Both the position numbers and the translations under genes were made by a program. From a virus, in IMG/VR virus record IMGVR_UViG_3300025154_002776, positions 1 through 40,954 of that record: a DNA stretch of 40,954 nucleotides. One strand, written 5' to 3'. Shown here one piece after another: positions 6,883 through 36,129 of the stretch (position 1 is the stretch's first letter; each line of letters starts with the position of its first letter). Under the pieces are notes generated by a model. The model was not told the DNA's origin and searched no databases. It saw nothing but the letters and a program-made list of their open reading frames with translations.

Positions 6883-9800
6883 CTATGCTGTTTTAGTGAT
6901 TTCAATAAGACTGATACCCGGCTTGCCGCCCATGCCACCTACAGCGGTATTCCACATATATATAGCTATGTTACCTGCAACAGCTTGTCCAGAGCCTACT
7001 ATTATACCCGAGATTTCTCGATTAAACTGTTTGTTATTTAACGATGTAAAACCTTCGTCTCCTACTGTAACAGGTGTTCCGGATGTTAGAATAGTGCCTG
7101 TGCCATTTTCAACGTTTACTTTATAATATGAGCAAGCTCTTAGAGAATCAGATATAGCTTCCGAACCGCACCATAAAAACTTAAATGTATAGGTGCCTTC
7201 CGGCAAACTAAGAATTATCCTTGATTTATGAACAGATGTCGGTTCAAGATAACATACGTTGTTTCTTTTAATATATAAATCTGGATATGCTCCACCTTCC
7301 CCGGACAATGTGAGCTCGTAGCTATTTAAGTGAGGCTCTGTCCAGTCAGTATCTGCTGTTGCAACAAAGAATGAAATATCGCTAATAATCTTCCAACCGG
7401 TCAAATCTAAACCGGTTGCCTTATTTTTAAGCTGGTTCTGACCATAGTAGCCTATACCAACAGTTCCGGCCATTGGTTGAGTTAAGTTAAATGTAACTCC
7501 TCCGGCGCTCGGATACTCAACGTTCCCATTGCCATTAGCATGCGCAAATGATAATACCGCTGCCACTGCTGCCGGAGGAGCAACTGTTAAAGTGATATCG
7601 TCATGTTGAACTGCTGACTCGCTAACGCTATTTTTAAGTTGAACGTAAACCGTTTTAGTTCCTGCTCCATCTGCAACCTGATAGCTCAGTGGAGAACTTG
7701 TAAAGGCAACCCATGCAGCAGCTGACAAGTCTGCCACCTCTCCGATTCTGTAGTGTGTTGGAGTACCTGTATAAGTCAAGCCTACGCTGACTGTTCTGTT
7801 GTCAGTACTTGCAGCTCCAGAATTGATTGACACGCCTGTCAAGGCAACAGACTGAACATAAGTTATTGAATCATTAACTACAGAAGATGTTTCTGTATCG
7901 TTCTTGACCTGAGCATAAACAGTTTTTGACCCATATGATGCTGAAACCATAAATTGAATTTGCCCTGCCGGAATATCTGTCCATGCTACAGCCGACAAAT
8001 CTACCGTTTCACCTAAACGGTATTGAGTTGCAGTTCCTGTATATGAAAGGTCAACATCAACAAGCCTTGCACCTGTATCAGAAGCATTATCGTTAATTGA
8101 GACTGCATTTAAAGAAAGAACGTTAGGATTAACATACTCTATTGAATCGTTACGAGAAGCACTTTCAGAAGAAGCGTTTTTGAGTTTTGCGTATACTGTT
8201 TTACTACCGAAGCCTGTGGATAGGTTAAACACAGGATTTTCGGCAAAGGCAGCCCATGAAGCGCCTGAGAAGTCTGAATTTTCACTAAGCATATAGTGCG
8301 TAGGAGTGCCTGTATAACTGAATCCCACGTTAACGCTCTGGTTACTTGAAGAAGCGGCTCCTGAGTTGATCGAGATTGAGTTAAGCACTACTGGTTCTTC
8401 TGAGTAAGCGATGGCATCTGATCGTGTTGCACTTTCTCCGTTCACGTTTTTAATCTTGACATAAACGGTTTTGGTTCCGTATCCGGATGACAATAAAAAC
8501 GATTTTGGAGAAACGTATGTTTCCCAAGAAGCTCCTGAAAAGTCTGAGTTTTCACTGACCATCATCTGCGAAGCACTGCCAGACATCGAGCATGTAATCG
8601 CTACAGTACGACTATAAGTGGTCGCCTCGTTGGCGTTGATAAGTATTGAGGTCAGTGTAGGAGCAGCTGCAAGAGCATCTATCCTCGCCTGAAATGGAGC
8701 CCTTAATTCCGGTTTTATCAACTGAATAAAGTATTGAGCATCCTCTAAGGCAAAGGTTTTTTCAGAATCCAAAAGCGCACCGATGATAGGAGGTGTATTT
8801 TCAAACAACTCTACATATTTCTCTACTTTGGCCAATAAATCGGCATTGAAATCTAAATTAACAAGCAACTGACTATCGCTGATTGCATGAGACATTCCAC
8901 TACAATTAGCCGAAGATGCTACCGAAACACCTGTCAAGCTTGAAATGCCCGACAGTAAACATGAAATAGACTTAAATTGAAAATCCTGTACAAAAGGAAT
9001 GTGAATCTTAAATTTAATATTTTGCCCGTTAACAGACTTTCCGGCGGATGCGTAATACTTCATCCATGAGTACTCCATGACTTCCTGAGAAGCCGCGAAC
9101 CATAAAGAATCGTCTCCAGATATACCATAGGCGGTTTCTAAATCAGAAAACAAAGCTTCAGCGCCTGTGTCGGAATATACATCATGCACTCCGTATATAT
9201 TCCAGATTCTATCAGCCAAAGACTTGGCATACTCTGAAATTACTTTTGCCTTAAAATCCGCTAAAGTATAGTCGGTTCTCCAGAACACCCTATAAGGAAG
9301 CAGGTCTTTCCTCGACAACGGAAGAGAATCAGCAAATGGCTTGTAATAATACCCGTTATTTCCATACTGACCATCCTGATTGGTTGCAATATAGTTGAAT
9401 AAGACATGAGGACAATTTAAGAACCTATAATAAATATCGTTCCCGCCCGGTCTCGTGCCTATAATCGGCTTCCTGTCAAGTAGGGCAAAATATCTCTCCC
9501 TTTCTATTAGAACAGCAGCATCAAACTCCTGCTGTGTCATACTGTCATAATTGTTTTTACTCTCACTATAGGGAATATACATATCGTGAATTTCATAGGC
9601 GACTCCGAAATCCGACATATACCTTATTTCTCTTGCGGATGATGCCGGAAAAGCATAACTTACCTGCTGATCCCTTGCCGTTACCAACCATGCCGGATCT
9701 GTGACATTAGAGTTTGCGCCTGTATTTTCGGCCAACCACCACCAAGAACCAGCAATACCAAAACCATAACGCCGTCTTCCTCCAGCGCCGTCGGAATATT

Positions 9801-16396: not shown

Positions 16397-16689
16397 TTTT
16401 TTCCGAATAACATTTGTTGTACTATCTCTTGATTAGCTGGATCATCAGCATTTATAACATCTTCTTTGTCTCCGTTTTTGTCGTCTTTGTCTGTCTTTTT
16501 GTATTCCGGTAATACCTTGCAATACATTATCATGTTCACGAAACTCATCTTGTATAGCACATATTCCGGAGTGAGGTTATAAGCCTTGCAAACAGATGCT
16601 ATTATTGCCCAGATGCTGTCGTTTTGTTCTTTACCACTTCCACCGTCTTCTTCACTAGATTGATGTCGCTCAGGGAAGTGGTTAAACCA
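16393..16689 (-). CDS. -1 frameshift extension of the tail assembly chaperone (gpGT-like)
   Basis: A 98-codon open frame without its own start continues the upstream chaperone in the -1 frame. It begins WFNHFPERH directly after a T TTT TTT heptamer and ends QQMLFGKK. It reads as real protein: an acidic linker (SSEEDGGSG), an aromatic helical core (YNLTPEYVLYKMSFVNMIMY) and a charged tail. Its TGA stop overlaps the tape measure ATG. The fusion would be 248 aa if the chaperone starts at 17138. By analogy with lambda gpG/gpGT, the minor fused form links tape measure and tube subunits during assembly. Confidence 0.85.
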   Translation of the reverse strand, partial: WFNHFPERHQSSEEDGGSGKEQNDSIWAIIASVCKAYNLTPEYVLYKMSFVNMIMYCKVLPEYKKTDKDDKNGDKEDVINADDPANQEIVQQMLFGKK

Positions 16690-17138
16690 AAAAAAGCTTC
16701 TATCTCCATATCATCTAAGAGTCCTCTCATGAGCATACTCAAATCACGAGGACCAATCTTTGTAAGTAGTTTGTCTGACAACTCTTTTAACCTGTCAATT
16801 TCTTGAACTTTAGGTTTGTTTATCACAACTCCGAATAATCGTTTTTCAGGCCTTATGACAACTGTGTCAACGTAATTTTCCTTGTAACCAAGCATCATCA
16901 CGGCACAGATTTCACCAAGAACACTACATTCCCTTGCTTTTCTCAATACTTCCATTTTTGCTTCCTCGTTTTCCAGTGAGGAATCAATAACCGGCATTTC
17001 AGCAATCAGCTCTGATACTTTCATTATAGTAGCTACAAGAGGTGTCGCAACTTCATACTTTTCACCACAAATAGTTAAAACCGTCTTACCCTGTAAAACA
17101 GCCTTAACTATCTTGCTTTCAATACTATTTTTCTTCAT
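16602..17138 (-). CDS. tail assembly chaperone (gpG-like)
   Basis: This helical protein of 178 aa, starting MKKNSIESK, lies between the tail tube and tape measure genes. I chose the ATG at 17138. The frame is open to an ATG at 17180, but the 14 extra codons coincide with the T-arm and acceptor of a tRNA-like gene and give a non-conserved-looking leader. Most ribosomes would end at 16602. A slippery T7 at codons 149-150 lets a fraction continue in the -1 frame. It would bind the tape measure protein to keep it soluble while the tube polymerises. Confidence 0.82.
   Translation of the reverse strand: MKKNSIESKIVKAVLQGKTVLTICGEKYEVATPLVATIMKVSELIAEMPVIDSSLENEEAKMEVLRKARECSVLGEICAVMMLGYKENYVDTVVIRPEKRLFGVVINKPKVQEIDRLKELSDKLLTKIGPRDLSMLMRGLLDDMEIEAFFGLTTSLSDINLVKKTVEVVKNKTTASGQ
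16689..16695 (-). other. programmed -1 ribosomal frameshift site, T TTT TTT
   Basis: On the coding strand seven T residues sit in the X XXY YYZ register of the chaperone frame: the first T is the third base of the GCT codon, followed by TTT TTT GGT. After a one-base backward slip, reading continues as TGG TTT AAC and stays open for 98 codons to the tape measure start. No clear pseudoknot was worked out by eye. A plain sequencing indel in the homopolymer is the alternative, but the conserved G/GT arrangement favours real frameshifting. Confidence 0.85.
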
Positions 17139-17156
17139 TGTTTTGATATTGATTTG

Positions 17157-17226
17157 TGCAGGGTTGAGAATCGAACTCATGCCTCCTGTTTGTTAAACAA
17201 GCACTCTGCCATTAAGCTACCCTGCT
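17157..17226 (-). tRNA. tRNA-like gene, apparent anticodon AAC (Val), noncanonical
   Basis: The minus strand folds as a cloverleaf. The acceptor is GCAGGG(T) with (A)CCCTGC. The D-arm is GCTT-AATGGCA-GAGT. The anticodon arm is CTTGT-TTAACAA-ACAGG (anticodon AAC by position, T33 and A37 present). A short variable loop follows, then a T-arm TGAG-TTCGATT-CTCA. Oddities are an A-rich mismatch at the T-stem base, only one or two bases between acceptor and D-stem, and A at the wobble position, which is rare in bacterial Val tRNAs. CCA is not encoded. It starts 7 nt after the tail tube stop and is probably processed from the structural mRNA. Confidence 0.6.
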
Positions 17227-28535: not shown

Positions 28536-28955
28536 TTATTGTTTTGTATCTGCTACTACCTGACTTGTTTCTTTCATTAACTCATAAAATGGGTTGACGG
28601 TGACATCCTGTTCGATCTTTTCAACATATCCCCTGTGCTTCATCTTTGTCTTTGATATCCATATCAGCATTACCGTGTCTTTGTCCGTAATCGCCTTGCT
28701 GTACATCGTAGTTTCAATGTCATCATAGAACATTTCCTGCTCATCTGCGACTCCTTTTTTAAATTTGTCATCTTCGTCACACCATCTATAAAAAGTCTGA
28801 CGTGATATGCCTACCACCTCGCATGTCTTCGATACATTACAAAGTCTTAGTTTAAAGGTGTTTATAAACCTTTTCTTCTTCTGCCTTGTTGTCTCTGCTT
28901 TCTTCTTCTCAGCGTTTTCCACGTTAACAGGAAGCTCTTTCTTAATCGTCTCCAT
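28536..28955 (-). CDS. terS: terminase small subunit
   Basis: This 139-aa protein has a basic N-terminus and a helix-turn-helix at about 40-60 (CNVSKTCEVVGISRQTFYRW), the DNA-recognition part of TerS proteins. A helical oligomerisation region and a tail (NPFYELMKETSQ) follow. It binds pac or cos DNA and stimulates TerL, encoded directly downstream. Its start overlaps the ParB-like gene by 14 nt. Confidence 0.82.
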   Translation of the reverse strand: METIKKELPVNVENAEKKKAETTRQKKKRFINTFKLRLCNVSKTCEVVGISRQTFYRWCDEDDKFKKGVADEQEMFYDDIETTMYSKAITDKDTVMLIWISKTKMKHRGYVEKIEQDVTVNPFYELMKETSQVVADTKQ

Positions 28956-29634
28956 TGTTCAATGTATAATCTACCAGTTCAATCATCTTGCATATACTAA
29001 GCACTTGTGCCTTGATCTTGTATTTGTCCTGTACCTTTGCGCTTACTTCATTTAGTCGTTTTAGTGTTTCCTTAGGCAACAAGGTAACGTTCTCCAGCTC
29101 TCTCGGAGTAAGGATATCCAGCTGTGCAAATATCTTGTCCATGTTCGCCTTTGCTGTATCTATGAACATAAACGTGACAGGTACAATCTCGTTTGATGGC
29201 ATTTCAATGGTATAGTCCATTCTTTCCATCTCGGCAAGGTATTCCTGAGAGATGTGTGCATACTCTTTCATTGCCGTGTCCTTTATTTCATCGAGCAGTT
29301 CCTTCAGTATTTCAGCGTCATCCTGTCCTTTTATGGAGTTGTGGGAAAGTTGTATCGCCCTCATCTCGTCATGTGTGATATCCTGTTCCAGTGCGTACAT
29401 TACTGGTATTTGTGTAAGTCCGGCCATCTTTGCTGCTTGTACCCTGTGGTTTCCTGATACAGCAAGGTATCTTCCATTTTCTTTCTCTATACAAAAAGGA
29501 ACAGAAGACAATTCTCCGTCCCTCTTTATGTTTGCGACAAGTTGCCTGAATGTGGCCTGCTCCATATAGTGAGCATTTTTGTCAATCAGATCAATCTCTG
29601 AAATCTGTACTATTTTGATTTTAAATCTCGACAT
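28942..29634 (-). CDS. ParB/Srx-domain protein
   Basis: The N-terminal ~110 residues form a ParB/sulfiredoxin-like domain: IDLIDKNAHYM, then SVPFCIE, and the hallmark GNHRVQAAKMAGLTQIPV. The remaining ~120 residues are helical and unassigned. I chose the ATG at 29634 (230 aa): it falls one base after the stop of the SEC-C gene, whereas the longer frame (from 29673) would overlap that gene. ParB-fold proteins next to phage terminases may act as CTPases, nucleases or packaging-site factors. Which applies here is unknown. Confidence 0.75.
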   Translation of the reverse strand: MSRFKIKIVQISEIDLIDKNAHYMEQATFRQLVANIKRDGELSSVPFCIEKENGRYLAVSGNHRVQAAKMAGLTQIPVMYALEQDITHDEMRAIQLSHNSIKGQDDAEILKELLDEIKDTAMKEYAHISQEYLAEMERMDYTIEMPSNEIVPVTFMFIDTAKANMDKIFAQLDILTPRELENVTLLPKETLKRLNEVSAKVQDKYKIKAQVLSICKMIELVDYTLNNGDD

Positions 29635-29635
29635 C

Positions 29636-29794
29636 TTATTTGCTTTTAGTATAAAATTCTGTTTCTGAGCCACAGCATTTATTTGCTTTTAAACCACTTC
29701 CACAAGGGCAAAGAGTGTTCTTTGATTCGCGCCTCGAATTGAGTGGAAGACCTTTTCTTTTAGGGGTGAAAACCACCTTACGTTCCTTACTCAT
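29636..29794 (-). CDS. SEC-C motif mini-protein
   Basis: This 52-aa protein (ATG at 29794, TAA at 29638) has a basic N-terminus and the zinc-binding signature CPCGSGLKANKCCG at about 32-45, matching the CPCGSG-x-K-x2-CC pattern of SEC-C motifs known from SecA and many small proteins. It would be a stand-alone zinc adaptor for protein or nucleic-acid contacts. It starts right after the amidoligase gene stop (29796) and ends one base before the ParB start, so it is tightly embedded in the operon. It is too short for standard ORF cutoffs. Confidence 0.75.
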   Translation of the reverse strand: MSKERKVVFTPKRKGLPLNSRRESKNTLCPCGSGLKANKCCGSETEFYTKSK

Positions 29795-29795
29795 G

Positions 29796-31844
29796 CTATT
29801 TCTTGTAATTTCGTTTTAAAAAGTCCTTTATTATTTCTTCCAATGATCCAAGCTTTCCTGACTCCTGCCTGTAGTGTAGTTTTCCGATCTGCCTGTCATA
29901 TAGCTCAAACACTCCCCTGTATTTCATTGATACTGGTTTATCTGTAAAAACCGACGTGTAAAATGAGTTTATTTCTCTCTTGAACCGAATGTCAATTTCT
30001 TCCTTGAATTCGGTTGAAAGAATGCCCATGAGCAGAAGCTTGCTCAGCTTCGGAAAATCGCTGTCAATAACAAAATCACTCTTGAGGCTTGCATTGTCCA
30101 CACCAAACGAAGACATCTTGAAAAAATCGACCATACAGGCTCCTATCACATACTTGTCCAGGAACCAGAGATAACAGAACGGAGCAGATCCTAAGATGAT
30201 ATCCTTTTTCAGATAGAACATTCTCAGGTAGTCAATCTCACTCATCGAGGCACGAATGAACATAAGACGGCTATTTTCAGTAAGCTCATATCCATCCGGA
30301 AGACGTTTGTACTTTAGTTGAGTGAGAAAACGCTTAGTGAAGACATTATCACCTGATTCAGATATGTTTGAGTAAAGACAGGTTCTATTGTCTTTAAACA
30401 CCTTTTTTCGGCCCATAAACTGATGCTGTGAGATAGCAATGTAATTGATCTGATCTTCGTCAATATCTGCATACTTTGTTCTGTTCCTTTCCTGAAACCC
30501 GAAATCTTCTTCAAGAACACGCATTAATGCATTACTGGCTGCTCTTAGTCCTGAATTGAATTCATTCTGGTAAACTATAACGTCTTTCTCAGTGCTGTCC
30601 GCTATTGCATCGGCCAGATCTCCACAATAAACAATTTCAATATCTTTCTTGGAAAGATTGTCAACAAGCTTCTGGTACTTTTCTGCATATTTGCTCCTGT
30701 AATGCTCCAGTTTGTTAAGATAATCATCATACAGGGATTTATGATAAATGTCCGCTGAGTTCTTGTGCTTCTTAATGGAGTTAAACAAGAAAAGAGTGGC
30801 TATAATCTCACTCTCTTTGTCTGTGGATATGTCGAGAAATCTGTATTCATCATTGAAGCTTAATTCCTTTATTTCGCCCCTGATTGCTTTGTAAAGGACA
30901 TAGATGAAATACTCCTTTGTGTAGACAACCATCTTATTGAAAACAACCTGCTCAATATCCATGTAAAAGGAGTTGACAACACGAACAGTATCAAACTGCT
31001 TTACCGATTTGCTTATGTAGGACAACATACGCTGTGACTTCTTGAACATCTCGCCAACAACCGTTGTATTATCAGACATCTCAGCTGCCCACAAGAGGGG
31101 CTTGTGTCTTCCTGGAACCTTGTCTCTGTCTATATTGAATGCCTGTAGACATTTTTCAATACTATTGAGCTCTATGTATTTTTCAATGTCTTCATTCATA
31201 TATGCATAATCGACAAATGAATACATGAACTTTATAGTCTCAAGAGTCTTTTCAAAATCCCACGAGGAGTTGAATATCCGGAACTCTATTGTTCCTATCT
31301 TTTCAATCGGAACACAATTAAGCCAGTACCGGATATGTCCACGATCAGAACCATTGCAGAATATCTTTATGAAGTTCTCCTCGCTGTCTGTGGCAAGTGC
31401 TTTCTTTACTACGTCATAGGTTGGTGTTGGTGCAAGGTACTTTGTGTCCCACCATTCCGGAAAATCAAAAATCTCTTTTATGGGTTTGGCCACATAATAG
31501 GACAATGCAAAGATTCTCTTGATTACATCTAACCCAAGGTCCCTAACGTAAAAATGAGCATCGAAGCCCTCGTTCCACATCAGGTACCCACCAGTCTCTT
31601 TCAGGAGATTTATGAAGTTCTTCAGCTCCTTCAGGTCTTCTTTGTTGTACAAGTACGGACGTGTGTTGATCTCTCCTCCAAACTGGCCATTGTGAGTGAC
31701 AGCACTTCCATCTGAGTTATTCATAAGTGTCAGATTGTTGTCTGTCCACTTATATCCCTCCGGGAGAACTATTTTTGTCTTGTCAGAGTCAGCAAACTCC
31801 AACTCAAAGCCAAACGTTCTTTTACTTATATTCTCGTTCCACAT
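29796..31844 (-). CDS. amidoligase (PF12224-like) fused to a GNAT-like C-terminal region
   Basis: This 682-aa protein has an N-terminal ~220 residues that match the glutamine-synthetase-fold amidoligase (COOH-NH2 ligase) family: FGFELEF (11-17), DGSAVT (45-50), GGEINTRP (56-63), His97 in AHFYV, and RYWLNCVPI then GTIEFRIFNSSWDFE (about 172-198). The middle (about 230-500) is helical and unassigned. The C-terminal ~170 residues (SRLMFIRASMSEIDYLRMF, then PVSMKYRG at 637-644) look like a GNAT or Mom-like acyltransferase domain of phage type. It probably forms an amide bond using ATP and transfers or caps the product. It overlaps the racemase-like gene by 23 nt. The substrate is unknown. Confidence 0.72.
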   Translation of the reverse strand: MWNENISKRTFGFELEFADSDKTKIVLPEGYKWTDNNLTLMNNSDGSAVTHNGQFGGEINTRPYLYNKEDLKELKNFINLLKETGGYLMWNEGFDAHFYVRDLGLDVIKRIFALSYYVAKPIKEIFDFPEWWDTKYLAPTPTYDVVKKALATDSEENFIKIFCNGSDRGHIRYWLNCVPIEKIGTIEFRIFNSSWDFEKTLETIKFMYSFVDYAYMNEDIEKYIELNSIEKCLQAFNIDRDKVPGRHKPLLWAAEMSDNTTVVGEMFKKSQRMLSYISKSVKQFDTVRVVNSFYMDIEQVVFNKMVVYTKEYFIYVLYKAIRGEIKELSFNDEYRFLDISTDKESEIIATLFLFNSIKKHKNSADIYHKSLYDDYLNKLEHYRSKYAEKYQKLVDNLSKKDIEIVYCGDLADAIADSTEKDVIVYQNEFNSGLRAASNALMRVLEEDFGFQERNRTKYADIDEDQINYIAISQHQFMGRKKVFKDNRTCLYSNISESGDNVFTKRFLTQLKYKRLPDGYELTENSRLMFIRASMSEIDYLRMFYLKKDIILGSAPFCYLWFLDKYVIGACMVDFFKMSSFGVDNASLKSDFVIDSDFPKLSKLLLMGILSTEFKEEIDIRFKREINSFYTSVFTDKPVSMKYRGVFELYDRQIGKLHYRQESGKLGSLEEIIKDFLKRNYKK

Positions 31845-32685
31845 ATTGAAGCTTTACTAATGATTTGTAGTTAGGAATAAGACGGATCTTGCTACCTGTT
31901 TTATAGATCGAAAACCTGTCTTTGTAAATAGTGTATTCGCTCGAACTGTCAACATATTCAAGAGCTCCACCTGATAATAAATAACAATATTTTGCGTCAA
32001 GATTGGCGTAACCTCCTCTTACAAGTATGTGCTGCCTTTCTCTGTATGTCTCAACAACCTCAAGCTCAACCTCTAATGCGTTGAATCCGTTTAATTCTGG
32101 AGTGTCACAATAAGGGATAGTGCCAAACAGCATATACTCACCAATGCGTATTTCGTAGACAAATTCAGGAAGTTTCCTGAATTGCAGATAGTAGCTTCCT
32201 CCAAGGCTTATTCCTTGAATAAAACCATATGTCTTCTGTATGTATGAACAGAAATTCTCCAACTCCAACATGGTAGGACCGCGATCATTGATACAACCTG
32301 ATGTGATTGACAGATATACAGATTTGTCCATGCTCGCTTTCCTTGCAAGGGTTATGTAGTCAGAATTTATACCCTCCCTGTCATCATGAAAGTTTACCGG
32401 TATGTAAACAATATCTGTCTTACACCTTGACAATGCTTCCATGTTTGTTATATATGATCCCTCATAACCCTCTGACTCTTCATTAATGACATAGTTGATA
32501 GTATTTCCCACACACAGTTTTTTTGTGTTGCCAAACATGTTGCAATTGATCATGTTCAGCCCGGCTTCCTTTGAGAGATAATCGTAAAAGCTTTTCATCA
32601 TCAAAGAGATGTTCTGACAACTCGTCAATAATGATGCTTGCTGGATATTGCTTTCCAGTGCTGCTTTGTTAATAACAAGCTTCAT
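31822..32685 (-). CDS. PLP-dependent racemase-like protein (ornithine/alanine racemase fold III)
   Basis: This 287-aa protein resembles ornithine racemase/alanine racemase N-terminal barrels: INKAALESNI at the start, a candidate PLP lysine (Lys31) in LMMKSF, ITSGCINDRGP near 127-137, the phosphate-loop-like GISLGGS (158-164) and EIRIGEYMLFG (178-188), followed by a beta segment. It is shorter than full racemases. It would make or bind a D- or unusual amino acid in the cytoplasm. It overlaps the GNAT (17 nt) and amidoligase (23 nt) genes, so the three are likely made together. Confidence 0.68.
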   Translation of the reverse strand: MKLVINKAALESNIQQASLLTSCQNISLMMKSFYDYLSKEAGLNMINCNMFGNTKKLCVGNTINYVINEESEGYEGSYITNMEALSRCKTDIVYIPVNFHDDREGINSDYITLARKASMDKSVYLSITSGCINDRGPTMLELENFCSYIQKTYGFIQGISLGGSYYLQFRKLPEFVYEIRIGEYMLFGTIPYCDTPELNGFNALEVELEVVETYRERQHILVRGGYANLDAKYCYLLSGGALEYVDSSSEYTIYKDRFSIYKTGSKIRLIPNYKSLVKLQYVEREYK

Positions 32686-33130
32686 TGTCTATGCGTTTTA
32701 ATACCAGTCTTTTCTTTCCATTATACACTGTTCCCCATGAGTACCAGAATCCACAATCAACGAAACCCTTAAGGCTTACTTCGTTTTCAGGAGAGACCAT
32801 GGTATAAACCTCTTTTACTCCGTTCTTGAAAAGAAGTGACATAGACTCATTCATCATCTGCTTCATGCATCCCTTGTTGCGAAGTTCAGGAACTACAAAG
32901 ACCTTTTCAATGTATCCTGTTCCGTATTCCGTGAAGTGTGCCAGAACAAAGCCTATTAGCTTGTTGTTTTCGTACAGCCCAACACTTGCCATGGACTTGA
33001 GACATTTTGAAATATCTGACTTCGAAGACCTAAAGCAAGTGTTTTCCTCTTTTATAAATTCTCTTTCAATACGAATGATGCTCAGCAGATTGCCAAGGCA
33101 TGACGTTAAGGGTTTTACTTTAATTATCAT
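32669..33130 (-). CDS. GNAT N-acetyltransferase
   Basis: This 153-aa protein has the GNAT core: the strand-helix motif A IEKVFVVPELRNKGCMKQMM (75-94) with the acetyl-CoA loop RNKGCM, then MVSPENEVSLKGFVDCGF (111-128) as motif B. I chose ATG 33130, directly after the DUF488 stop; an upstream ATG at 33190 would overlap that gene by 59 nt. It probably acylates an amine of a small molecule or peptide. Position between DUF488 and a racemase-like gene suggests it works in the same pathway as the amidoligase. Confidence 0.8.
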   Translation of the reverse strand: MIIKVKPLTSCLGNLLSIIRIEREFIKEENTCFRSSKSDISKCLKSMASVGLYENNKLIGFVLAHFTEYGTGYIEKVFVVPELRNKGCMKQMMNESMSLLFKNGVKEVYTMVSPENEVSLKGFVDCGFWYSWGTVYNGKKRLVLKRIDNEACY

Positions 33131-33131
33131 A

Positions 33132-33542
33132 CTAAAAAAGTGTTTGTTCAATAATCTTTGGCTTTTCTTCCTTGACTGCAGAAACACCAAATTCCGTTAC
33201 TTCAATACCTGTGGTCCTTGTAAACCATTCTGCAAATATGTGCCTGTGACAAAAGTCACTTGGCTTTTCATAACATAACAAAGCGACATCGTTTCCATTT
33301 CCATACGCTTTGATCATTGATATTATCTGAGAGGGGTTGACCTGAGCCAGAACATCCTTTTTGTACATGTTCGTATACTGCTCTTCTGTAAGGCTGTCAT
33401 TAAGCATGTATCTCTTTGGTGCAAGTATCAATATGGAAAAACCACCAAAGAACTTTGGTTGCCACAAAGCAATGTTTATAGGACATATCCCACTCTTTGC
33501 CAGGTTCCTTAAATTTCCGAAATAAGACGTGTAAATCTTCAT
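33132..33542 (-). CDS. DUF488 family protein
   Basis: This 136-aa protein carries the DUF488 signature LLCYEKPSDFCHRHIFAEWF (88-107), including Cys90, Cys98 and two His residues, plus an N-terminal IYTSYFGN. DUF488 proteins are small, often mobile-element or phage-associated, with unknown biochemistry. It is the first gene after the promoter at 33565-33594 and heads the GNAT-racemase-amidoligase cassette. Confidence 0.8.
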   Translation of the reverse strand: MKIYTSYFGNLRNLAKSGICPINIALWQPKFFGGFSILILAPKRYMLNDSLTEEQYTNMYKKDVLAQVNPSQIISMIKAYGNGNDVALLCYEKPSDFCHRHIFAEWFTRTTGIEVTEFGVSAVKEEKPKIIEQTLF

Positions 33543-34440: not shown

Positions 34441-35280
34441 TTATAGTTCTTTAAATATGTTATAATCCCTGTTTACGCAATTTGCAGGAAGTTCTGACCT
34501 CTCTATCCAGGCAGCTTTGAGAAGAGAGTCTTTAAAATACACTTTTCGTGTTCTTCTTGCTATAAAGATTACTGCATTCATGAAATTAAAAAGTTCGTTT
34601 TTATCATATTTCTTGCCCGACTCAAGCCCTATTTTTAACAGGTCACATATCCCTGCTGTGCGTACAATCATTTCAATGCTGCTCTTAAAATCAATAACCG
34701 GCTCTATGCTTGCGAATGTCTTGAACCCTGCATCGTGTAGTTTTTTCATTGCCTCAATTCGCTCCTGATTGGTCGATGCTCCGGGTTCCAGTTCATCGTG
34801 TCCGGTAAGGGTGAAGCCGAAAGCAATATTGCATTTTGCATTATTTGGAAGGTCGAATATTGAACAGCCTTTATTGCCGTCAATTTCAAATATTTTCAGA
34901 TCAATGAATTTTTCAACCTTAGTTAAAATCTTGACAGGAATCTTAAACTTAGAGCAAACTACTAAAGCCTGATAAGTCATTGCAATTGTTTCCGGCAACA
35001 TTGGATCAGTGGAGAAACTAAAAAACAAACCGTGTTTTTGCAGTTCCGGAAGATTCGCTTTTAGTTCCATTTCAAACACCTCTAAGGCGTGTACTTCATC
35101 CTTGAAGCACTTCTTTAGTGTAGGGACATTTCCGCCTAAAATAGCGGCTCCCCTGCCTTTTTTCAGGTAGCAGTAATCACAGCCGTTTGAACAGCCTACG
35201 TAGAAATTACAGGCCCATTCAGCATACTCTTTTGCCTTGCCTGCCGGTTGATAAATTGCTTTTCCTTTAAATGTTTTCAT
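34441..35280 (-). CDS. radical SAM protein, SPL-like
   Basis: This 279-aa protein has the radical SAM cluster motif in the form NFYVGCSNGCDYCY (Cys30, Cys34, Cys37), the layout of the spore-photoproduct-lyase-like family common in phages. Later segments (FSFSTDPMLPE, then ITGSMLANV-like strands and the SIEPVID region) fit the TIM barrel. It binds a 4Fe-4S cluster and S-adenosylmethionine. The family includes DNA repair enzymes, but most phage members are uncharacterised. It lies 9 bp after the PAPS-reductase-like gene. Confidence 0.8.
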   Translation of the reverse strand: MKTFKGKAIYQPAGKAKEYAEWACNFYVGCSNGCDYCYLKKGRGAAILGGNVPTLKKCFKDEVHALEVFEMELKANLPELQKHGLFFSFSTDPMLPETIAMTYQALVVCSKFKIPVKILTKVEKFIDLKIFEIDGNKGCSIFDLPNNAKCNIAFGFTLTGHDELEPGASTNQERIEAMKKLHDAGFKTFASIEPVIDFKSSIEMIVRTAGICDLLKIGLESGKKYDKNELFNFMNAVIFIARRTRKVYFKDSLLKAAWIERSELPANCVNRDYNIFKEL

Positions 35281-35289
35281 ATTATTTTT

Positions 35290-36129
35290 TTATTGCTTAT
35301 TAAAATTATAGTCTATTGTATAATTTTGTTTCATTGCCTTATATTTAGCAACACTTACACCTGATACCCACCAATTGAATACTTCGTCAACATCCATATT
35401 AAACTCTGTATATTTGCCCATTTTACACAACTCGTAAATAGATTTCTTGATTTCTCTTTCAACCCCAGGGAAATTTTGCCTATCCCTTTGTTTTGATTTT
35501 TTTGAACTATATGGACAAAACATGCACCCTATTCTATTATAACCCATATCATAAAGACTACAATATTCCATATCGTTCTTTCTAATAAAACTCCACACAT
35601 CTGCATGAGACCAGTCAATAATTGGAGAAAGTAGTATTTTGTCTTTTCCTTTAATGCATAATACCTGATTCTCGTTATCAATATTAAATTGATCAAGACT
35701 ATTCGAGTATTTTCTTCCACTTATTTCTAATTCGTTGCGCTTTGCTCTTTTACTACTTTCTGCTTTTCTTATGCCTATAATAGTAACCGTTCCTGAACCA
35801 GAACCCTCTTTAAGTTCCTTGCAGCAAAATCTTCTATTCATTGTTGGAAGAGACATATATTTTATAATCAATTTATAAAAATTCATCTCCGGTCTTTCCA
35901 TAATTACATCCGGATAATTTAACCGCACAAACCTCATTAATTCCGGAGGATCAATACTTGTGACTTGCATAACCGGACGAAATTTAACACCTGCCATTTG
36001 AGCAAGTTTGTAAATAACAAGGCTATCCTTTCCACCTGAAAAAGCTAAATGAAAGCCATAATCCTGATATTTCAGTGCTAAAGATTCAGCTTTCTGTATA
36101 GTTTCTATTGCTCGTTCTGTTTTACCCAT
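35290..36129 (-). CDS. PAPS-reductase-type PP-loop protein
   Basis: This 279-aa protein has the PP-loop SGGKDS (31-36) of the adenine-nucleotide alpha-hydrolase superfamily and RRFCCKELK (99-107). It also has a C-terminal GCMFCPYS (201-208), which forms a Cys pair seen in phosphoadenosine-phosphosulfate reductase-like phage proteins. The usual assimilatory ECGLH motif is absent. Related proteins include DndC-type and tRNA-thiolation enzymes, so a role in sulfur transfer or nucleotide activation is possible. It is adjacent to a radical SAM gene. Confidence 0.8.
   Translation of the reverse strand: MGKTERAIETIQKAESLALKYQDYGFHLAFSGGKDSLVIYKLAQMAGVKFRPVMQVTSIDPPELMRFVRLNYPDVIMERPEMNFYKLIIKYMSLPTMNRRFCCKELKEGSGSGTVTIIGIRKAESSKRAKRNELEISGRKYSNSLDQFNIDNENQVLCIKGKDKILLSPIIDWSHADVWSFIRKNDMEYCSLYDMGYNRIGCMFCPYSSKKSKQRDRQNFPGVEREIKKSIYELCKMGKYTEFNMDVDEVFNWWVSGVSVAKYKAMKQNYTIDYNFNKQ

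Follow-up and report, generated by a model that had tools for sequence, protein, structure and literature searches.

What would a phage make with an amidoligase, a racemase-like enzyme, an acetyltransferase and a DUF488 protein encoded side by side, and to what would it attach the product? This question is raised by four genes at positions 29796–33542 of IMG/VR virus record IMGVR_UViG_3300025154_002776, a 40,954-nt stretch of viral DNA that we analyzed at its full length (hereafter the window). A first-pass annotation of the sequence had proposed that these genes hold what is needed for making an unusual or D-amino acid and linking it by an amide, a proposal that conserved active sites and gene order now support. 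Here, we describe the encoded proteins, their conservation and their partners, and come with moderate confidence to the view that they form a prophage-borne DNA hypermodification cassette, in which an amino acid would be joined to phage DNA bases by an amide bond.

As first annotated, the four genes overlap or abut one another, and all lie intact and tightly packed on the (−) strand. They encode a 136-amino acid (aa) DUF488 (DUF488-N3a) protein (33132–33542; PF22751 at 1.4e-10, PF04343 at 1.8e-4), a 153-aa stand-alone GNAT acetyltransferase (32669–33130; PF00583 at 1.7e-11), a 287-aa fold-type III pyridoxal phosphate (PLP) enzyme resembling alanine and ornithine racemases (31822–32685; K31, GGS and RIGE motifs), and a 682-aa fusion protein (29796–31844; Amidoligase_2, PF12224, at 4.4e-9 and GNAT-phage-like, PF22559, at 7.5e-27). 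The GNAT ATG at 33130 falls one base past the DUF488 stop codon, so that an alternative TTG start at 33190 is superfluous. Next comes, also on the (−) strand, the gene for a 230-aa ParB-like protein with a nucleotide-binding SGNHR motif (28942–29634, ATG at 29634; PF02195 at 4.5e-5, phrog_7405 at 3.8e-55), followed by TerS-like and TerL genes. The cassette had been placed just before ParB and the terminase, which is correct for the order of these genes, although a 52-aa open reading frame (ORF), described below, intervenes before ParB.

Domains of the fusion protein

We found that the 682-aa protein is built of three domains: an amidoligase, a Dam-like domain with the fold of DNA adenine methyltransferases, and a GNAT fold. 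The first-pass annotation had recognized both ends, each of which has a Pfam match, but overlooked the domain between them. The amidoligase domain (residues 1–218; 31191–31844, (−) strand) scores 37 bits against the Amidoligase_2 profile, whose curated cut-off is 22, and the same domain reaches 77.8 bits in locus L163. It carries the GxExE, GGE and ExR motifs together with H97, D102 and R172, and in an alignment of homologues R9, T10, G12, E14, E16, G56, E58, H97, D102, R172, T185, E187 and R189 are identical in 45/45 proteins and G57 in 44/45. From its family membership, the domain is predicted to join amide bonds with ATP.

The middle domain (about residues 219–515; 30300–31190, (−) strand) matches DAM-like-phage1 (PF22555) weakly in the window protein (0.0084). 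We take the match as real because the same domain is recognized far more strongly in relatives, at 9.8e-6 in locus L012, 3e-94 in the shorter protein of Gordonia phage Sting and 5.5e-85 in that of Mycobacterium phage Megabear; the sister model DAM-like-phage2 (PF22556) scores 6.8e-95 in locus L134. The C-terminal GNAT-fold domain (about residues 516–682; 29799–30299, (−) strand) carries the PF22559 match and contains invariant DF and (V)S(M)KYRG motifs.

An AlphaFold2 (AF2) model of the 682-aa protein, built from 26 phage or genome sequences, has a mean pLDDT of 86 and a pTM of 0.69. Foldseek searches of this model against the PDB returned E. coli Dam (2ore, E 2.2e-3) and GNAT proteins led by Naa60 (5.9e-5) and PseH (2.1e-4), all with probability 1.0, while searches against viral models (BFVD) returned many annotated phage amidoligases and one near full-length relative with 67% identity. 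When the fusion profile was searched against PDB sequences, the only matches were spurious ones to ubiquitin. The C-terminal domain had been described as Mom-like, and for the fold this is so: phage Mu Mom (8bv8) is matched at E 1.3e-3 with probability 1.0, among many other GNATs. The likeness does not extend to sequence, where hhalign gave the Mom family a probability of 1.4%, a test of little power given that the cassette's own canonical GNAT scored 1.2%.

A constant core and predicted amino acid suppliers

We assembled 137 loci with a GNAT-phage-like domain from viral contigs and genomes, with duplicates removed. In 45 of these the domain lies behind Dam-like and amidoligase domains, and in the other 92 behind a Dam-like domain only. 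A ParB-like gene adjoins the Dam/GNAT gene in 135/137 loci (44/45 with the amidoligase, 91/92 without), always on the same strand, and DUF488 is found nearby in 110/137 (42/45 and 68/92, with 32/40 among the non-amidoligase loci that have at least 6.5 kb of upstream sequence). The four genes originally noted as a unit do stay together, but the constant core is DUF488, Dam-like/GNAT and ParB; the amidoligase is an add-on to it, and the racemase with the GNAT is one supply module among several that can replace one another. The core without an amidoligase is found in Gordonia phages Sting and Clawz and in Mycobacterium phage Megabear. The association persists to about 17–33% identity and extends to a Gastranaerophilales genome as well as to actinophages, and terminases of several unrelated families occur at the loci, so that shared inheritance of a single late gene block fails to explain the linkage. 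Among 50,697 cultured phage records, none matched the fusion over 80% of its length and 13 contain the core, while stand-alone amidoligases are present in many phages.

Where would the amino acid come from? A racemase-like gene is present in 22/45 amidoligase loci versus 0/92 loci without the amidoligase, an opine dehydrogenase in 14/45 versus 0/92, and a saccharopine-forming dehydrogenase in 6/45 versus 1/92. One of these three enzymes is thus held by 42 of the 45 amidoligase loci, none holds two, and of the three loci with no supplier one (L147) is truncated by the start of its contig. Because the 42 loci have a single supplier each and the 92 others have nearly none, we conclude that the amidoligase is accompanied by its own dedicated enzyme for supplying an unusual amino acid, and that this supplier can be exchanged. 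The opine dehydrogenases match PF02317 at up to 9.4e-29, and their closest solved structure is CENDH, an N-(1-D-carboxyethyl)-L-norvaline dehydrogenase (3.9e-15); all 14 of these loci have a D-Ala-D-Ala-ligase-like ATP-grasp gene (3.2e-10) after ParB. The saccharopine-forming supplier resembles lysine-ketoglutarate reductase/saccharopine dehydrogenase (1.3e-27). Locus L126 has a DUF4417 gene (7280–8005) where its relatives have the opine dehydrogenase; ParB-DUF4417 fusions have been reported in phages (PMC12704722).

The racemase-like protein of the window has no direct Pfam match, but 7/10 of its homologues match PF14031, and the PLP lysine K31 is invariant in its alignment (20/20). Its AF2 model (pLDDT 91.4, pTM 0.88) resembles, over its whole length and with E values from 6.1e-13 to 1e-9, D-serine dehydratase (6.1e-13, the best match), alanine racemase (1.2e-11), alanine-racemase-like proteins and D-threonine aldolase, so that the best matches include dehydratases/aldolases and Alr alike. 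The dehydratases have a Zn-type metal motif, PNHxC. At this position the racemase-like protein reads PxYxSL, and the replacement of the metal motif favors racemization over dehydratase activity, as judged from sequence. Both models, of the fusion and of the racemase-like protein, have the expected folds, and the conserved amidoligase residues and the racemase lysine are retained throughout their alignments; the outcomes that the first-pass annotation had named as refuting, among them separation of the genes in relatives, were thus not observed.

Identification of the remaining partners agrees with the first-pass annotation, which had also named the DUF488, GNAT and racemase-like proteins. The stand-alone GNAT occurs in 18/45 amidoligase loci and 0/92 others. 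In DUF488, C90 and C98-H99-R100 are invariant, both cysteines, the histidine and the arginine being identical in 106/106 homologues; a PDB sequence search with this protein gave nothing meaningful. The S, G and R of the ParB SGNHR motif, the last being the P-motif arginine, are kept in 133/133 proteins, and the ParB profile matches ParB and Noc structures, and SbnI weakly. Ten racemase loci, the window not among them, additionally encode a Cys-rich domain (GWxCC ... C ... CPL) with several invariant cysteines, either fused to the cassette GNAT or separate (for example L003 6222–7121 and L012 4286–4726); it is "YkgJ-like" by motif only, with no Pfam match.

Candidate targets of the predicted machine

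We propose the following route. The PLP racemase-like enzyme would make a non-standard, probably D-, amino acid, and the stand-alone GNAT may then add an acyl group to it. To load the enzyme, ParB would act on DNA as a clamp or switch that depends on nucleotide binding; the Dam-like domain would hold the target on the DNA, in all likelihood an adenine or another base that has been flipped out; and the GNAT-fold domain, perhaps with DUF488, would install or expose a reactive handle. Using ATP, the N-terminal amidoligase would activate a carboxyl group and join the amino acid to this handle as an amide, and the predicted outcome is phage DNA decorated with amino acids and resistant to the nucleases of the host. 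In related phages, an opine dehydrogenase plus the D-Ala-D-Ala-ligase-like ATP-grasp, or the saccharopine-forming dehydrogenase, would take the place of the racemase, such that the amino acid varies and the machine stays. A bolder version, which we consider somewhat less likely than not, is a modular phage machine that amide-links to DNA bases whichever non-proteinogenic amino acid its plug-in enzyme provides (a D-amino acid, an opine or a saccharopine-like compound), with a Dam domain that has given up catalysis and holds the base.

The DNA target is the least certain step of this route. We favor DNA bases because of the Dam fold and because ParB partners are found beside Mom and DNA carboxymethyltransferases. 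The ParB fold binds nucleoside triphosphates and occurs in fusions with DUF488, acetyltransferases and DNA methyltransferases (PMC12704722), ParBc genes lie in the context of CmoX DNA carboxymethyltransferases (PMC12783734), and in Microbacterium phage Antuna and Arthrobacter phage Zartrosa (L183 2469–3621, L185 1–861) we observed Mom-type genes with ParB-like neighbors. DNA modification of the GNAT type may generally have ParB as a partner. In Vibrio phage 2.275 (L016 5866–11074), an amidoligase gene adjoins QueF, QueD/queuosine-biosynthesis and GTP cyclohydrolase genes, a neighborhood that suggests amidation or aminoacylation of 7-deazaguanine bases. The first-pass annotation had left DNA and capsid side by side as its favored targets; DNA now gains over capsid, mainly through the Dam-like domain that it did not notice and the ParB partner.

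Several observations weigh against this proposal. The S-adenosylmethionine (SAM) motif I and the DPPY-like motif are absent from the Dam-like domain of the amidoligase clade: the window protein reads VVNSFY...E and YQNEF where actinophage forms have GCSG and FPPF, and the clade has an invariant VN in place of what was lost. The amidoligase-free proteins keep C48 and G50 (of GCSG) in 82/83 cases and D69 and P188 (of FPPF) in 83/83. This pattern looks as if one catalytic step had been replaced upon arrival of the amidoligase, and in the amidoligase clade the Dam-like domain may have ceased to act on DNA. Of the 137 C-terminal GNAT domains, only 13 have the usual coenzyme A (CoA) loop, [QR]xxGx[GA]. 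A tree of the 45 amidoligase proteins needs only five supplier changes, with the racemase form scattered over deeper branches and the opine and saccharopine dehydrogenase groups each essentially one clade. With so few swap events, the supplier evidence rests on exclusivity and near-zero occurrence in the absence of the amidoligase, not on raw counts. For amidoligases elsewhere, peptides or cell surfaces are among the proposed substrates (cited in PMC11318856).

The alternative that best survives, which we nevertheless consider unlikely, is a protein target, with the cassette ligating an unusual amino acid or peptide to capsid, terminase or host RNA polymerase and the Dam-like domain reduced to a degenerate scaffold. 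Amidoligases and GNATs commonly modify peptides and proteins, the fusion gene lies near the terminase genes in the window, and the loss of the Dam catalytic motifs from the amidoligase clade would fit such a scaffold. Against this, the amidoligase-free core retains both those motifs and its ParB partner, and the variety of terminase families at the loci means that terminase proximity indicates no single protein target. Less probable still is a cell-surface target, in which the cassette would make or modify host surface or peptidoglycan peptides and so block superinfection. The racemase and D-Ala-D-Ala-ligase-like parts suit this idea, and PMC11318856 cites an amidoligase of phiEco32 as one that modifies cell-wall receptors. 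Yet the parts that stay constant are ParB, DUF488 and the fold of a DNA methylase, and no transporter or membrane protein is evident among the recurrent neighbors.

We judge it improbable that the product is a diffusible small molecule or a modified nucleotide or RNA end (for example, a nucleotide-amino acid conjugate) deployed in virus-host conflict. ATP-grasp and opine enzymes are typical of small-molecule pathways, and predicted substrates of DUF488-clade enzymes include the ends of nucleotides, RNA or DNA; but no exporter or immunity gene was recognized among the recurrent neighbors, and the Dam-like fusion and ParB partner suggest a polymer substrate. Hitch-hiking of unrelated genes in the conserved late region of one phage lineage is very improbable: many loci are closely related and kinship inflates the counts, but the reach of the association to distant relatives with unrelated terminases, the neighbor counts in the 137 loci and the exclusivity of the suppliers already contradict it.

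Prophage setting and relation to known systems

The phage that carries the cassette is an integrated prophage with an integrase on one flank and a transfer-messenger RNA (tmRNA) gene on the other. A tyrosine-recombinase (integrase)-like gene lies at L189 8001–9341 and the tmRNA gene at L190 157–552, at the opposite prophage edge, making ssrA the probable integration site. Genes flanking the prophage and the tmRNA tag point to a member of the Bacteroidota as host, and the GNAT-phage-like domain is rare in that phylum (4/395 genomes). The cassette had been credited with a promoter of its own, which our scans do not sustain: the region has 15 sigma-70-like sites versus 17.8 ± 3.8 in shuffled sequence, not above chance, and no Bacteroidota-type promoter (TTTG/TAnnTTTG) lies ahead of the cassette. 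PADLOC gave weak candidate-defense models on DUF488 and ParB only and no known defense system.

Between the amidoligase gene and ParB lies the 52-aa SEC-C-type zinc-motif ORF (CPCGSGLKANKCCG; 29636–29794, (−) strand). We rejected it as a cassette member, as it occurs in this phage only with no counterpart in any relative, and it is probably an insert outside the core. Upstream of the cassette (34441–36129, (−) strand) are radical-SAM (spore-photoproduct-lyase-like) and PAPS-reductase-like genes, and a radical-SAM gene is likewise found upstream in loci L008 and L011 (55–59% identity). A tRNA-Val (anticodon aac) is predicted in the structural gene region at 17156–17225 on the (−) strand, overlapping the start of an ORF at 16602–17180.

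The closest working analogue of the cassette is the CmoX/CmoY system of Synechococcus phage S-B43, which places a carboxymethyl group on DNA cytosine and then ligates glycine to it with an ATP-dependent amide ligase (PMC12783734). The CmoA/CmoX/CmoY system resembles our proposal in its phage-encoded handle on a DNA base, its ATP-dependent amide ligation of an amino acid and its nearby ParBc genes (PMC12783734). The components differ: CmoX is a relative of cytosine C5 methyltransferases and CmoY an asparagine-synthetase-like, AMP-forming ligase, whereas the cassette combines Dam-like/GNAT and Amidoligase_2 domains in one protein and, unlike CmoX/CmoY, has dedicated enzymes for making its amino acid. 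Its genes fall in other Pfam families than CmoX, CmoA (the Cx-SAM synthase) and CmoY, a distinction drawn by Pfam assignment.

Other relatives share single features. Mom, which makes N6-carbamoylmethyladenine in phage Mu, has the GNAT fold, and in actinophages Mom-type genes have a ParB-like neighbor; we detected no sequence relationship, and the cassette differs in its fused Dam-like and amidoligase domains and its DUF488 partner. The PF22555/PF22556/PF22559 proteins of Gordonia phage Sting and Mycobacterium phage Megabear share both C-terminal domains with the cassette and likewise have a ParB-like gene next in line and DUF488 upstream, but lack an amidoligase and an amino acid enzyme, keep the Dam-like motifs and are annotated just as DNA methyltransferase or hypothetical protein. 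Amidoligase_2 proteins usually stand alone or occur with glutamine-amidotransferase/cyclotransferase-type partners, whereas the cassette copy, which has the family's conserved motifs, is fused to Dam-like and GNAT domains. In thymidine hypermodification, as in Pseudomonas phage M6 and others, amino acids and GNATs build a bulky base, but its 5-hydroxymethyluracil-kinase/amino-acid-transferase enzymes were not recognized among the scanned genes, and a different chemistry is expected.

We regard the cassette as a predicted novel variant of phage DNA hypermodification. The literature that we searched has no description of an amidoligase cassette with exchangeable suppliers; key amidoligase, base-modification and DUF488 surveys lie outside that search, so the core may have been predicted before. 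The Pfam names DAM-like-phage, GNAT-phage-like and DUF488-N3a indicate that curators had already seen these domains, and Burroughs and Aravind (2023) reportedly predicted phage nucleic-acid modification roles for the DUF488 clade. CmoY, which uses glycine, is the only phage ATP-dependent amide ligase acting on DNA that we found in the literature searched. If our proposal is true, a second, unrelated machine with exchangeable D-amino acid or opine suppliers would extend what is known of DNA chemistry and hint at the means by which phages escape nucleases. From the supplier swaps, the adducts are predicted to differ from phage to phage, and the core is present in cultured phages of Gordonia and Mycobacterium.

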